A DNA stretch of 64,000 nt from Thermoflexus hugenholtzii JAD2. Its GTDB lineage: Bacteria; Chloroflexota; Chloroflexia; Chloroflexales; Roseiflexaceae. The notes beneath the pieces are model-generated. The model was not told where the DNA came from. It searched no databases and saw only the letters and a program-made list of their open reading frames with translations. Below, one piece after another: positions 58,208 to 64,000 of this stretch. Location: assembly GCA_945881915.1 (NCBI GenBank), contig CAMCVW010000006.1, forward strand, positions 1 to 64,000. Direction: 5' to 3'. The translations under genes and the position numbers were made by a program. The first letter of the stretch is position 1, and each line of letters starts with the position of its first letter.

Positions 58208-58236
58208 TTGTGCTAAATGCAAGCCTAAGTTATAAT
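58208..58236 (+). promoter_or_regulatory. promoter of the ssp operon
   Basis: TTGTGC (58208-58213), 17-bp spacer, TATAAT (58231-58236), 80 bp upstream of sspB. It shows that sspB is the first gene of its transcript. Confidence 0.7.
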
Positions 58237-58316
58237 AAACCGCCTGAAGGGCGATTTGGAAGTGTCTAAGAACTACAGAGACTACCAATAACCAAAAAAT
58301 AACAGAGAGCAGCGCC

Positions 58317-59210
58317 ATGGAACACCCCCTCAATTACCAATTCAGTGGCCATGGAACATTTATATTGCGCAGTAATTGGCTCAAACGCCTCTACGATGAA
58401 TGCGTAATTGATCCAATGGTCTTCTCTCGTGCAGATGCACTTATTCGTTTTGGTGTCGGCAAAAACATGGTAGATGCAATTCGATATTGGGGAAGTGTGA
58501 CTGGAATTATTGCTTCGCATCCGGAGCGCGGGTGGCAACCTACAGAAATGGCTCATATCTTATTTGGTGCGGATGGTATTGACCCTTTTTTAGTAACTTC
58601 ATGGTCGAGGTGGTGGCTGCATTGGCGGTTAGTCAATTCCACAGCATTTACATGGAATTACGTGTTTATGCAAATGGCATCGAATGAAATTGATAGAGAA
58701 CAAATTACCCGAGACATTGCGTCAACATTGGGAACACTGGGTTTTAAGGTTCCATCCCAGGATGTTTTGAAACGAGACACAAATTGTTTGGTCAATAGTT
58801 ACTTAGCTCCTCATCACTCCGAAAGTAATATCGAAGAAACACTACTCTGCCCGCTAACTTCTCTTGGACTCCTGCAGGACAACGGAGAGTCAATTCGCAT
58901 ATTAAGTAGTGAACGTGATGATTTGCCTGACTCGATATTCATTAGTGCTATAGCGCAAGCCATGATTGCGAGTGGGAGAACTGCAATATCATTTTCTGAA
59001 ATAATGTGGGGTCGCAACGGTCCCGGAAGAATGTTTCGGTTAACGGAAGATGCTCTACTTTTTCGAGTATCAAGACTTGAAGAATTGACACATGGGGAAG
59101 CAATGTACAGCGATCAAGCCGGTGTGAGAACTCTCATGTGGCAGAACGTAAAGGACTTTGACACCCATGAGTACATCATGTTGCATGCCCAGCGCGAGGT
59201 GGGACGATGA
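58317..59210 (+). CDS. sspB: SspB-like DUF4007 protein, DNA phosphorothioation
   Basis: A 297-residue DUF4007 protein: NYQFSGHGTFILRSNWLKRLY at the N-terminus, then FSRADALIRFGVGKNMVDAIRYW, are the family signature. DUF4007 proteins are the SspB component of the SspABCD single-strand DNA phosphorothioation system, where SspB nicks DNA to allow sulfur insertion. The next gene overlaps by 4 bp (ATGA). The whole cluster is visibly more AT-rich than the core genes upstream, suggesting transfer. No sspA precedes it. Confidence 0.87.
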   Translation: MEHPLNYQFSGHGTFILRSNWLKRLYDECVIDPMVFSRADALIRFGVGKNMVDAIRYWGSVTGIIASHPERGWQPTEMAHILFGADGIDPFLVTSWSRWWLHWRLVNSTAFTWNYVFMQMASNEIDREQITRDIASTLGTLGFKVPSQDVLKRDTNCLVNSYLAPHHSESNIEETLLCPLTSLGLLQDNGESIRILSSERDDLPDSIFISAIAQAMIASGRTAISFSEIMWGRNGPGRMFRLTEDALLFRVSRLEELTHGEAMYSDQAGVRTLMWQNVKDFDTHEYIMLHAQREVGR

Positions 59211-62200
59211 CTCAAAGATACCTCCGTTCGGTAAATATTGCTCATGACTACTCAGAAAATGGTGCTGAACTACAGGGATATGTTGCTACACCACTTGTCC
59301 TTCAAACTCTCTCAAGAGTTGTGCGCGGAATCAACGACTCTGCTCAAGGACGTGCATATTCAATAATTGGGCCATATGGAACAGGTAAATCTGCGTTTGG
59401 TGTGTTTCTTGCACATTGGTTAAGTAAGAATGCTGCCGGCCGCAAAGATTTAATAGCTCAGCATGCACCAAAACTCACTGCAGACATTGATTTCGGTGTT
59501 GGTTCGTTATTCCCGGTTTTAATGAGTTCACGTGCCGCAACCCTTAGGCAAGCAATACTTTTGTCACTGCAATCTCAATTGGTGAAACAAACTAAGAAAA
59601 AGAAACTGACTCAACTACTCGAGCTCATTGGTCACGCTGCAGAAGACGGTGATGTTTCGCCAGAAATCGTAGCAGATTTACTTCAAGAAGCCATAGTATA
59701 TGTCAGAGAGCATAGTTCGTATGAAGGTATATTGCTCGTTATCGATGAGTTAGGGCAGCACCTTTCCCAGATTCATCGTTCCGGCGACACGCGGGATCTT
59801 TTCGTTCTTCAGACGATAGCCGAGGCTGCTTCAAGAACGAACGAAAACGCGTTGATGGTTGTAACAATTCTCCACCAAACCTTTGAGCGTTATAGTACGA
59901 CAGCAAGCGTTGCACAACAGACAGAGTGGGCAAAAGTGCAGGGTCGGTATATCGACCTAGTATTTCAAGAGCCGTACGCTCAAATGATGCGATTCGCTGC
60001 GAACGTATTAACTGACTATCAAAAACCAGCGGGCTGGTCCGAATTTGCAAGATTACTGGCAAATGAATCGAGCACCCTCGGATTAAAGCCTCACGAGATT
60101 GATGACGCCAATTGGTATTCACTCGTGCATGACAGTTATCCATTGCACCCAACGGTTCTTGTAGCATTACCATATCTTTTTCGATCAATCGCGCAGAATG
60201 AACGATCGCTCTTTGCGTTCTTGACAGCAAACGAACATGGTGGACTTCGTGAGCACGATTTTTCTGGAGACACGATTTCATTTTTTCGGTTACATGACCT
60301 GTATGGTTACGTTGAAAACACTCTGGGTCCCGGATTATTCGGTAGAGCAAAAGGTCGGCCCTGGGTTGAAGTAAGTGAGCTCCTTCGTCGAAGCAGAGAC
60401 TTACCAATGCTGGAGTTGCAGCTCCTTGCAACTATAGGAACCCTTGCAGCTCTTCACGAAGATCGTCTCCTCAAACCAAGCAAAGAACTTATTTCATTTT
60501 CGCTTGTAGACCAATCGGTATCGCATCAAATTCAATCGCTTTTGCAAAATCTCATTGATAAGCAGCTCATCCTCTACAGTTCATACCGTGATAGGTTGCG
60601 GCTTGCAGAAGCGAGCGATATCAATATTGATGAAAAGTTGCAAAATTGCCGTAACGACCTCTCGATGCAGCAAGATCTTGTTTCCTTGCTACAAGAATAT
60701 GTCTCATTTCGGCCAATCATCGCATACGAACATTCTTATAAAACAGGCACATTACGTTCATTTACGACAAGATTTGTTGAACACACGCGTGCATTTGCTT
60801 CTTCAGAACATATCGTTTCAGTGGGCGATGGCGAGATATGGTTTGTCGTCATTCCGGATGATGAAATCCGCGCTAAAGTGCTTACTTCTGCGCGCAAAGA
60901 CATCATATTGGTAATACCGGAGCGGACGACTCAGCTCCGCGAAGCACTGCTTGATGTTGCTGCTCATAGATTGCTAAACAAAGATACAGAGATAAACCAT
61001 GACAAAGTAGCTAAGCGAGAGCTTGCACTTCGTTTAGTAGAAGCAGAAGCAGGCTTAGCGGAACTCATTAGAACATCGTATGGAAACACACATGGTACAT
61101 GGTTGATTATTGGTTCTGTAGTCGACGTTCGGGATGCACGCAAACTGGACAATTCACTCAGTACGTACCTCGATGCACGTTTTCGGGATGCCCCACTTAT
61201 ACGAAATGAATTAATTGTACGAAGTAAATTGTCGGGGACAATTTCTCGTGCGCGTCGCATTCTGATAGAAAAATTGCTCGAACAGAATTCCACTCGACTG
61301 TTTGATGGCGATGCATTTCCTCCTGAGCGCGCTATCTATGAAAGCATCTTCATTGCTGGAGTCATCCACGTTGGAGAGGATGATGGCACATGGCGCCTCA
61401 GTTCTCCGCAACCACACAACGATCCGTTGCACCTTGGTCCAGTTTTCAGTGCCATTGAATCATTCTTTTCATCTGCGGAACATGCCCGTCGACCTTTGAC
61501 AGAGCTATATTCGCTTCTCGCTGCTCCACCATTTGGTGTGCGAGAACCTGTCATACCGCTGCTTTTTGTAGCGTTATACATAATCAACAGTGGTGAAGTT
61601 GCGCTCTATGAGCATGATTCGTTTGTTTCAGTACCTGACATCGCAGTGTTTGAGCGCTTGCTAGCAAAACCGAGTTACTTCTCACTGCGCCGGACACCAT
61701 CAAGCCGATTGCGTGCTGCATTATTTGAGCGGGTGGCAAAAGCGTTTGCGCCAATGGCACTGCAAAAGTCGGGCACAGTTGCCGTACTAGACGCTGTAAA
61801 ACCTATGCTTAAGTTTGCACAGCAACTCCCTGCTTACGTGAAATCTACCACCAATCTTTCTCTTAAAACACGTACAGTTCTCGATGTCTTGCTTACTGCT
61901 AAAGCGCCAGATGAACTTCTCTATCGAATGTTGCCAGAGGCACTAGGTTTGCCATCCGTCGCGATGTCGGAAGAGCTAGCCGCAACCTATGTCGATGAAT
62001 TTGCGGCAAATTTACGTACTGCGTTAGAAGAAATGCAAAATGCATATACAATACTGTACAACAATTGCATTTCTGACTTTGCTGCTGCGATAGTATCTCA
62101 AACGAGAGATCCTGTTTTGATGTACAGTGAGATTGCAGAGCGCATGCAGTTGGTGATCGACCAAAGCGCAGATACGCAATTGAGAGCTCTTGCATTACGT

Positions 62201-62581
62201 ATCAGTTCATCAGACCCAAAGAAGTGGATGGAGCCAGTGGCCGCATTGCTTGGGAAAAAACCGCTGAGTTCCTGGACCGATGCCGATGTAGGTGTTTTCA
62301 AACTTGCAGTGACTGATATTGGCAGAAGGTTACGCTTGTTTGAACAAGTTGCCACGGCAAGCAAGACACACTACCTAGGACATGCCCGACGCAGAATTGG
62401 TATAACAGACAATACTGGTGAACGAAGTGCAGTTGTTCAACTGCCAAGTGATGAAAAGATTTCAAATCTACGATCACAAATCGAACAAATCCTCGAGGGA
62501 GCAGGTCTCGATTTCGCAGATAAGTTGGGTTTACTGACATTACTCCTTGATAACGCACTTCCTAAGGAATCTGAAGGATAA
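59207..62581 (+). CDS. sspC: SspC-like P-loop ATPase, DNA phosphorothioation
   Basis: A 1124-residue cytoplasmic ATPase. Walker A is GPYGTGKS at residues 55-62 and Walker B is LLVIDELGQ at 176-184, followed by a sensor-like VVTILHQTFERY; the remaining ~900 residues are mostly alpha-helical with no known motif. Size, position between the DUF4007 and PP-loop genes, and overlap with sspB fit SspC, the ATPase that works with SspB and SspD. BrxC-like ATPases of BREX are a distant alternative, but pglZ and brxL are not in view. Confidence 0.82.
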   Translation: MTQRYLRSVNIAHDYSENGAELQGYVATPLVLQTLSRVVRGINDSAQGRAYSIIGPYGTGKSAFGVFLAHWLSKNAAGRKDLIAQHAPKLTADIDFGVGSLFPVLMSSRAATLRQAILLSLQSQLVKQTKKKKLTQLLELIGHAAEDGDVSPEIVADLLQEAIVYVREHSSYEGILLVIDELGQHLSQIHRSGDTRDLFVLQTIAEAASRTNENALMVVTILHQTFERYSTTASVAQQTEWAKVQGRYIDLVFQEPYAQMMRFAANVLTDYQKPAGWSEFARLLANESSTLGLKPHEIDDANWYSLVHDSYPLHPTVLVALPYLFRSIAQNERSLFAFLTANEHGGLREHDFSGDTISFFRLHDLYGYVENTLGPGLFGRAKGRPWVEVSELLRRSRDLPMLELQLLATIGTLAALHEDRLLKPSKELISFSLVDQSVSHQIQSLLQNLIDKQLILYSSYRDRLRLAEASDINIDEKLQNCRNDLSMQQDLVSLLQEYVSFRPIIAYEHSYKTGTLRSFTTRFVEHTRAFASSEHIVSVGDGEIWFVVIPDDEIRAKVLTSARKDIILVIPERTTQLREALLDVAAHRLLNKDTEINHDKVAKRELALRLVEAEAGLAELIRTSYGNTHGTWLIIGSVVDVRDARKLDNSLSTYLDARFRDAPLIRNELIVRSKLSGTISRARRILIEKLLEQNSTRLFDGDAFPPERAIYESIFIAGVIHVGEDDGTWRLSSPQPHNDPLHLGPVFSAIESFFSSAEHARRPLTELYSLLAAPPFGVREPVIPLLFVALYIINSGEVALYEHDSFVSVPDIAVFERLLAKPSYFSLRRTPSSRLRAALFERVAKAFAPMALQKSGTVAVLDAVKPMLKFAQQLPAYVKSTTNLSLKTRTVLDVLLTAKAPDELLYRMLPEALGLPSVAMSEELAATYVDEFAANLRTALEEMQNAYTILYNNCISDFAAAIVSQTRDPVLMYSEIAERMQLVIDQSADTQLRALALRISSSDPKKWMEPVAALLGKKPLSSWTDADVGVFKLAVTDIGRRLRLFEQVATASKTHYLGHARRRIGITDNTGERSAVVQLPSDEKISNLRSQIEQILEGAGLDFADKLGLLTLLLDNALPKESEG

Positions 62582-62585
62582 AGCA

Positions 62586-63416
62586 ATGACCTACATTGAT
62601 CCGTGTATAGAATGGGCCAAGCGACCTGGCCGTCATATTGTTAGCTTGAGTGGTGGCAAAGACAGTACAGGACTTGCCATTTTGCTAAAGGGAAAAATCC
62701 CCAATCTTGAATACGTGTTTTGTGACACGGACAAAGAATTGCCTGAAACATACGAATACCTCGACAAGTTAGAAGCGTATCTCGAACAACCAATTGTGCG
62801 GCTGAATGCTGGTCGAGGGTTTGATCATTGGCTGACCGTGTATGGAGGAGTCCTCCCTTCGGCTCAGACTCGCTGGTGCACGCGCAAACTGAAAATTGAA
62901 CCCTTTGAACAGTATGTTGGTAACGATATCATTTGGAGCTATATCGGCATCCGTGCTGATGAGAATCGTGATGGTTACATTTCTTCCAAAAAGAACATCA
63001 CGCCCGTTTATCCTTATAAAGAGTACGGATTGAAACTGCCAGATGTCGAGAAACTGCTACAGGAGAGCGGTATTGGCCTACCTACCTATTACGAGTGGCG
63101 CCAACGTAGTGGGTGTTACTTCTGTTTCTTTCAACGTTCTGCAGAATGGGTTGGCCTGAAAGAACGCCACCCGGAACTGTTCGAACAATCAAAGCGGTAT
63201 GAGGAAGATTTCGGCGGTAAGGGTTTCTATTGGCGCCAACGTGAGCAACTCGCAGAGCTCGAGCAGCCTGAACGTGTAGCCGAAATCAAAAAACTGCATA
63301 CTATACGATTGGAGCAAGAACGCTCTCGCCGACCAGATCGTCCGCTCATAGACCTCATTGGGGATGCACTCGATGCCGAAACGGAAGATTTTGGATGTAA
63401 CATCTGTCATCTATAG
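62586..63416 (+). CDS. sspD: SspD-like PP-loop ATP pyrophosphatase (PAPS-reductase fold)
   Basis: A 276-residue member of the PAPS-reductase/DndC-like adenine nucleotide alpha-hydrolase superfamily. The PP-loop SGGKDS is at residues 22-27 and WCTRKLK at 97-103; cysteines 98, 177, 180, 271 and 274 (GCYFC, CNIC) could bind a cluster or carry sulfur. It would activate the DNA backbone with ATP during phosphorothioation. Start ATG 62586 follows GAAGGA by seven bases and lies 4 bp after the sspC stop. Confidence 0.87.
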   Translation: MTYIDPCIEWAKRPGRHIVSLSGGKDSTGLAILLKGKIPNLEYVFCDTDKELPETYEYLDKLEAYLEQPIVRLNAGRGFDHWLTVYGGVLPSAQTRWCTRKLKIEPFEQYVGNDIIWSYIGIRADENRDGYISSKKNITPVYPYKEYGLKLPDVEKLLQESGIGLPTYYEWRQRSGCYFCFFQRSAEWVGLKERHPELFEQSKRYEEDFGGKGFYWRQREQLAELEQPERVAEIKKLHTIRLEQERSRRPDRPLIDLIGDALDAETEDFGCNICHL

Positions 63417-63425
63417 GAGTGTCAA

Positions 63426-64000
63426 ATGCCAAGTGCTATCCAAATCTTCACACGAAATGAAGTGAAATCACTTTCCGCTTTAGTGGATGTTGGTAGCCAG
63501 GGATTTATAATTCCAGCCTATCAACGGCAATACAAATGGGGAAAAGAAAATATTAGCCGGTTATTCGAGGATATATTGTCTGGCCTTAATGATGTCAAAA
63601 TGCCGCGTGCCGATGACGACACAATTTTTCTGGGTACTTTTATTGCTGTAGAAGCCAGTAATCAAGACCTGAAAACCTTCATTACGAATAAAGATTTCGC
63701 CGCACCTACAGGAAGACTCTATATTGTTGACGGTCAGCAACGGTTGTCGACTGTCGCATTGATTGCCATAAGTCTACATAACCAACTAAGTGAGTTGATG
63801 AAAACTTTGGAGTCATACGCTTACTGGATAGACGACGAAAAAACCAAAATAGAAGATCTTTGTAGGATAATCGAACAATGTATAACGGCTAAACTTGAAA
63901 GATTCTATTGTGTGGAAGTTTCTGGTAACGTTGATCCTAAACGTAAACCGATAATAGTGCGACTTTCCCAGGAATTTTGGATCAGAAATGGAAAAACCGG
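63426..64000 (+). CDS. sspE: SspE-like DUF262 restriction protein (5' part, cut by window end)
   Basis: The open frame starts at ATG 63426, six bases after AGGAG and nine bases after the sspD stop, and runs off the window (191 codons seen). It encodes a DUF262 (ParB/Srx-like, GmrS-type) domain: IPAYQRQYKW at residues 29-38 and DGQQRLS at 102-108, the NTP-hydrolysis motif. In SspE this domain senses phosphorothioate and a C-terminal DUF1524 HNH domain nicks unmodified DNA; that half lies outside the window and must be confirmed. Confidence 0.85.
   Translation, partial: MPSAIQIFTRNEVKSLSALVDVGSQGFIIPAYQRQYKWGKENISRLFEDILSGLNDVKMPRADDDTIFLGTFIAVEASNQDLKTFITNKDFAAPTGRLYIVDGQQRLSTVALIAISLHNQLSELMKTLESYAYWIDDEKTKIEDLCRIIEQCITAKLERFYCVEVSGNVDPKRKPIIVRLSQEFWIRNGKT

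Follow-up and report, generated by a model that had tools for sequence, protein, structure and literature searches.

What does an sspBCD-sspE operon without sspA encode in full, and is it more than the known phosphorothioate (PT) defense system SspBCD-SspE? The question arises at the end of a 64,000-base window (the whole stretch of DNA analyzed), which represents the start of contig C6 (125,935 bp) in a 3.09-Mb Roseiflexaceae (Chloroflexota) genome of 63 contigs (G000). Four consecutive genes on its forward strand, which the original prediction had described as encoding a DUF4007 protein, a 1124-residue ATPase, a PP-loop protein, and a DUF262 protein, show strong matches to Pfam and PADLOC models. 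sspB (58317..59210) encodes a 297-aa DUF4007 protein, the DNA-nicking/target-selection subunit of PT modification (Pfam DUF4007, 1e-64; PADLOC SspB, 2.4e-69; solved SspB structure 6juf, E=3.3e-22). sspC (59207..62581) encodes a 1124-aa BrxC-like ATPase (PADLOC SspC, 9.2e-270) with the Walker A motif GPYGTGKS at residue 55, and sspD (62586..63416, starting with the ATG at 62586) encodes a PAPS-reductase-like PP-loop sulfurtransferase with the motif SGGKDS (PADLOC SspD, 9.6e-110; PAPS_reduct, 1.1e-10). The fourth gene, sspE (63426..65735), is cut by the window end at 64000; its portion inside the window already matches PADLOC SspE (2e-33) and GmrSD_N (6e-20).

Past position 64000, sspE is completed to 769 aa (PADLOC, 1.1e-128 over the full length; GmrSD_N, 2e-25) and includes the DUF1524/GmrSD_C nuclease half that had been expected there (GmrSD_C, 3.8e-8). 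The SspE structure 6jiv aligns along the full length (7e-61). Kept motifs include YQR at 32, DGQQR at 102, and EHIAPQ/GNLTLLP in the nuclease region; in Streptomyces SspE, Y30/Q31 are the PT-sensing residues and DGQQR contains the GTPase residues (PMC9646914). SspBCD writes PT, and SspE senses PT on host DNA, hydrolyzes GTP, and nicks DNA (PMC9646914, PMC13251355). Systems of this known type act against phage by placing sulfur in the host's own DNA and cutting DNA that lacks it. The operon runs on beyond sspE, on the same strand and contig, into genes for a GHKL MORC/MutL-like ATPase (65744-67570) and a stand-alone sulfur-binding domain (SBD) protein (67573-68067). By sequence, it is an SspBCD modification module with SspE, extended by these two genes in the order sspB-sspC-sspD-sspE-GHKL-SBD, with intergenic spacings of -4, +4, +9, +8, and +2 bp, the first three of which bear out the tight coupling described earlier. 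The SspBCD-SspE interpretation therefore holds for the identity of the module and had missed the two downstream genes, which lie outside the window.

The six genes have a GC content of 43.6%, compared with 56 to 59% on either side (56% in the rest of the window), so the block is indeed more AT-rich than its surroundings. This is consistent with horizontal acquisition, without proving it. Neither a tRNA nor long flanking repeats were found at the insertion site, and in sister genomes the homologs of the genes neighboring the block sit on contigs other than those carrying ssp. A promoter had been placed directly before sspB; no sigma-70-like site passes the promoter scan there, where a lone TATAAT is accompanied by a poor -35 element.

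An sspA gene is absent from the cluster, as originally noted. The absence is no oddity, however, since the sspA-less form is known and functional in Escherichia coli 3234/A and no SspA match was found in any of 12 related loci of the order and class whose sequence extends 5.5 kb or more upstream of sspB. It had also been suggested that sspA might lie beyond sspE, where the GHKL and SBD genes are found instead. The lack of sspA is ordinary: E. coli 3234/A has the same arrangement, and in this order it is the rule. In that strain, sspBCDE works with sulfur supplied via IscS (PMC13251355); sspBCD is typically a three-gene operon for which IscS can stand in for SspA (PMC8092258). As a caveat, in Vibrio cyclitrophicus FF75 the chromosomal iscS failed to substitute for sspA (PMC7188994). 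Because sspA is absent, we propose that sulfur would come from a chromosomal NifS/IscS-type cysteine desulfurase. Judged by its sequence, the NifS/IscS/DndA-like desulfurase encoded at C21:52200-53285 (NifS, 456 bits; IscS, 341; DndA, 329) is a candidate donor.

Among known systems, SspBCD-SspE of E. coli 3234/A is alike in gene content and order, in lacking sspA, and in having an SspE with the PT-sensing patch, DGQQR, and a DUF1524-type nuclease half. That locus is described as confined to sspBCDE, which is sufficient there (PMC13251355), whereas the operon here continues into the GHKL and SBD genes. In SspABCD-SspFGH of Vibrio anguillarum FF-93, sspBCD is likewise joined to an effector cassette, there one other than SspE; SspF contains Walker A and SspH resembles FtsK, unlike the GHKL and SBD proteins. 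Type 4 BREX (BrxC/SspC, BrxP, DUF4007, PglZ, BrxL) contains homologs of SspB, SspC, and SspD. Type 4 BREX, Dnd, and SspFGH were each considered as identities for this operon and rejected: neither the operon nor the 19 kb after it (L002, L154) contains a match to PglZ or BrxL, dndD/E are not present downstream, and SspF with Walker A, SspG, and FtsK-like SspH are absent beside this sspBCD.

The last gene encodes a 164-aa sulfur-binding domain, the PT reader type known from SBD-HNH restriction enzymes, and its product is a predicted reader. In a single-sequence search, the protein matched PDB 8h0l (SBDHga1) with E=2.8e-4, and a profile of 19 relatives matched the same structure with E=8e-34. Folds of the SBD and GHKL proteins were predicted with AF2 from the orthologs at L036 rather than from this genome's own copies; L036 belongs to G439, a Roseiflexaceae MAG (Chloroflexales, Chloroflexota) of the same genus. 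For the SBD model (pLDDT 86.6), the confident matches were SBD structures only (8h0l, 7ccd, 7cc9, 7ccj, and 5zmm). We mapped the binding pocket onto ScoMcrA (PMC6224610) via the conserved P165-to-W175 spacing. P165 and R/K117, which are essential in the ScoMcrA SBD (PMC6224610), correspond to P82 and K33 (R117 in ScoMcrA), both invariant in the family. A168 corresponds to A85 and Y164 to M81, and the substitution Y164M in ScoMcrA gives stronger binding (PMC6224610). H116 is replaced by Y32, a Tyr that several of the order's SBD-HNH enzymes share at this position.

Short stand-alone SBDs occur in 3 of 82 genomes of the order (this genome, G380, and G439). The other SBDs of the order lie in frames of 208 to 380 aa, nearly all of 320 to 380 aa, as expected for SBD-HNH enzymes; one of these that was checked has an HNH domain and matches NCBIfam NF045808 (PT-DNA restriction endonuclease, 4e-39), and the longer relatives look like SBD-HNH enzymes. 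In comparison with ScoMcrA, SprMcrA, and NF045808 proteins, the 164-aa protein shares the SBD fold and the PT-pocket residues and differs in being a separate protein without HNH inside a modification operon; no HNH was found in its frame or in the sequence downstream of the gene. That the remaining SBDs of the order are all part of longer frames would suit a functionless relic of an SBD-HNH endonuclease stripped of its nuclease domain. We regard such decay as very improbable, because the gene is intact in three species at 30 to 34% protein identity (G000 versus G380/G439), keeps its pocket residues, has a proper start and stop right after the GHKL gene, and has further stand-alone counterparts in a type 4 BREX-like locus and in viral contigs (see below). 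The 164-aa frame was also considered as a decayed PLD protein and as an HNH enzyme with a frameshift; both readings were dropped, as it has no PLD or HNH similarity and matches SBDs instead. Small hypothetical proteins beside DndB-like genes in cyanobacterial and Roseobacter clusters, considered as its possible kin, proved unrelated on comparison.

The GHKL protein (608 aa; HATPase_c_3, 3.4e-24) has intact ATP-binding motifs, and its profile matched the solved MORC2, MORC3, and MORC4 structures at 8e-8. The AF2 model of its ortholog (pLDDT 81.8, pTM 0.65) matched SMCHD1, MORC2, MORC3, and MutL across the ATPase module. Residues 325 to 335 (G-I-S-I-V-R-A-D-R-E-L) are, by eye, one position off the published MORC S5 motif GhXhhpXXRhl. 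MzaB matches the protein at the N-terminal domain only. A likeness is also found in the MORC/paraMORC ATPases of restriction systems, GHKL proteins with an S5-type domain that usually lie near SF2 helicases and nucleases (PMC2292703). Iyer et al. (2008) had already described operons in which such proteins accompany helicases and nucleases, so the GHKL part represents a known protein type in a new context; their study noted cases with HKD/PLD nucleases and makes no mention of PAPS-reductase or phosphorothioation neighbors (PMC2292703).

Plasmid homologs of the GHKL gene are located within sspBCD clusters, mostly in the arrangement DEAD/ResIII helicase-GHKL-PLD protein. A scan of 84,980 species genomes yielded 80 best loci, distributed over nine phyla (Cyanobacteriota, Pseudomonadota, Actinomycetota, Chloroflexota, Bacteroidota, Bacillota, Acidobacteriota, Armatimonadota, and Myxococcota). 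At least two of sspB, sspC, and sspD lie near the GHKL gene in 61 of these 80 best loci and in 36 of the 43 where 9 kb is present on both sides; as a background frequency, DUF4007 occurs in 34 of 400 Chloroflexota genomes. Among the same 80, a helicase gene is adjacent in 75 and a PLD gene in 54, and a simple pattern detects the HKD motif in 38 of 55 PLD proteins. PADLOC has no model for this trio; its helicase matches PbeA (6e-22 to 3e-27) and its PLD protein matches DrmC/ZacB weakly. PbeABCD and CglI/NgoAVII similarly combine a PLD nuclease with an SF2 helicase, but in PbeA the PLD and helicase are fused and the partner is Dnd, the partner of CglI is a methyltransferase, and neither is described as having a GHKL partner of this family. 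Nor is the trio SspFGH, because SspFGH-like cassettes are recognized separately in Chloroflexota and have the Walker A and FtsK-like components that set them apart. From its gene content and neighborhood, the helicase-GHKL-PLD module beside sspBCD (L022-L032, L036-L115) is a candidate for a further Ssp effector module that is neither SspE nor SspFGH. In various cyanobacteria, the slot beside sspD in such loci contains SspE, DndB-like, or HNH proteins, and in L097 SspE lies directly 3' of the GHKL gene, at the usual PLD position. Same-family helicase-GHKL pairs with no sspBCD or PLD within the available flanks were observed in Anaerolineae/Chloroflexi (L053, L058, L063, and L072).

Given that the GHKL protein elsewhere has its own helicase and PLD nuclease, the GHKL and SBD proteins might together form an independent second restriction effector that acts in parallel with SspE as a reduced helicase-GHKL-PLD module. 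Such coexistence has a precedent, as SspFGH and SspE occur together in 36 genomes and protect additively (PMC8092258). We nevertheless consider this arrangement quite unlikely: neither protein contains a recognizable nuclease, no homolog of the trio's helicase or PLD nuclease was detectable in this genome (in a search with no positive control within that genome), and the SBD-linked GHKL proteins fall outside the helicase-linked ones in the tree, not inside, with the rooting uncertain. Since these helicase and PLD homologs were undetected, the mode of action of the GHKL protein may differ here from that of its relatives.

The sspE-GHKL-SBD order is present in three species of the genus, including this one. 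In G439 (L036/L152), sspC-sspD-sspE-GHKL-SBD lie on a single contig. In G380, sspC-sspD-sspE and the start of the GHKL gene lie on C302 and the end of the GHKL gene and the SBD gene on C290, so that the order spans one contig break. sspB is not visible in either genome because the contig begins inside sspC. The DNA of G380 and G439 is about 96% identical across sspC-sspD and across GHKL-SBD, whereas the sspE genes (L137:4004-6347 in G380, L152:3675-5999 in G439) share 46 to 68% DNA identity and 27% protein identity. One breakpoint lies immediately downstream of the sspD stop codon and the other immediately upstream of the ribosome-binding site of the GHKL gene, and sspE has a GC content of 33 to 38%, compared with 52 to 59% in its neighbors (G439/G380). 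On this pattern, sspE, the effector gene, seems to have been exchanged alone; these are MAG contigs, for which an assembly artifact is possible and a chimera at both gene borders unlikely. The comparison suggests a slot in which effectors can be exchanged, next to a GHKL-SBD pair that stays constant. At the sequence level, gene identity and order, intact motifs, and an architecture kept in three species are established. Higher identity of SspD between species (87%, versus 33 to 53% for the other proteins) was considered as a sign of recombination and dropped, SspD being a slow gene order-wide (69 to 75%, versus 37 to 44% for SspB/SspC).

Alternatively, the operon could be a plain SspBCD-SspE system whose GHKL and SBD genes are defense-island passengers, sharing a transcript and functionally independent (for example, as a separate GHKL-based system). 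Defense genes tend to cluster, and sspBCDE without sspA is enough in E. coli 3234/A (PMC13251355). This is unlikely in view of the close spacing of the GHKL and SBD genes (2 to 8 bp), the order common to three species, the exchange of sspE that left GHKL-SBD in place, and the tie of the GHKL family to sspBCD across nine phyla; moreover, the SBD profile and the ortholog fold predict a protein that binds PT, the expected product of the operon's own modification module. The SBD-GHKL pairing itself is seen in one genus only, a spread too narrow for a statistical argument from co-occurrence.

The most likely explanation, and one we think probable, is a six-gene PT defense operon in which the GHKL and SBD proteins form a second PT-checking unit next to SspE. 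For its workings, we infer PT activity, complex formation, clamp behavior, and the direction of signaling as follows. SspB, SspC, and SspD would introduce single-stranded PT modifications into host DNA, and the known effector would be SspE, which senses PT and acts as a GTPase and nickase. The SBD protein would bind PT sites and recruit the MORC/MutL-like ATPase, which may dimerize with ATP on DNA in the manner of MORC and MutL proteins and close as an ATP-dependent clamp. The clamp could couple the presence or absence of PT to a nuclease, SspE here and PLD or another nuclease in relatives, and the output would be either licensed attack on unmarked DNA or protection of marked self DNA. Because SspE itself reads PT, an additional reader could be redundant or have a regulatory role.

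A broader proposal, which we make tentatively although it could well be right, is an Ssp-associated effector class built on a MORC-like GHKL ATPase. It would comprise the widespread helicase-GHKL-PLD form by sspBCD and, in this genus, the SspE-GHKL-SBD form, in which a stand-alone PT reader would recruit the clamp and SspE would be exchangeable. As far as the open-licence PMC literature shows, where we found no report of either, both the extension of the operon by GHKL and SBD after SspE and the wider link of sspBCD to GHKL are new; sspBCDE without sspA is already known. Previously, 2,211 of 2,678 sspBCD clusters were found to lack both sspE and sspFGH, and the authors asked about further restriction partners (PMC8092258); a 2025 review gives three PT restriction branches only (PMC12707154). 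The GHKL module, with its link to sspBCD across nine phyla, offers a concrete and testable candidate for such a partner. The SBD-GHKL pair, if confirmed, would represent a bacterial MORC-like ATPase that operates alongside a protein devoted to reading an epigenetic mark. As the sspE swap between otherwise nearly identical loci suggests, the effector is exchanged and the reader/clamp pair retained.

Several related gene arrangements were observed elsewhere. On Chlorohelix and Rhizorhabdus plasmids (L034:13411-17984 and L035:3240-7496), a different histidine-kinase-like ATPase is paired with a hypothetical protein; the pair lies within or next to sspBCD clusters that include an FtsK-like gene. 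A stand-alone SBD of 163 aa (L127:11023-11511, in G142) belongs to a type 4 BREX-like locus that also contains PglZ and BrxL; there its gene is flanked by sspD and a second DUF4007 gene. In IMG/VR viral contigs, stand-alone SBDs of about 170 to 190 aa (L172:5920-6444, L173:5902-6474, and L174:5923-6438) adjoin large helicase-like genes.
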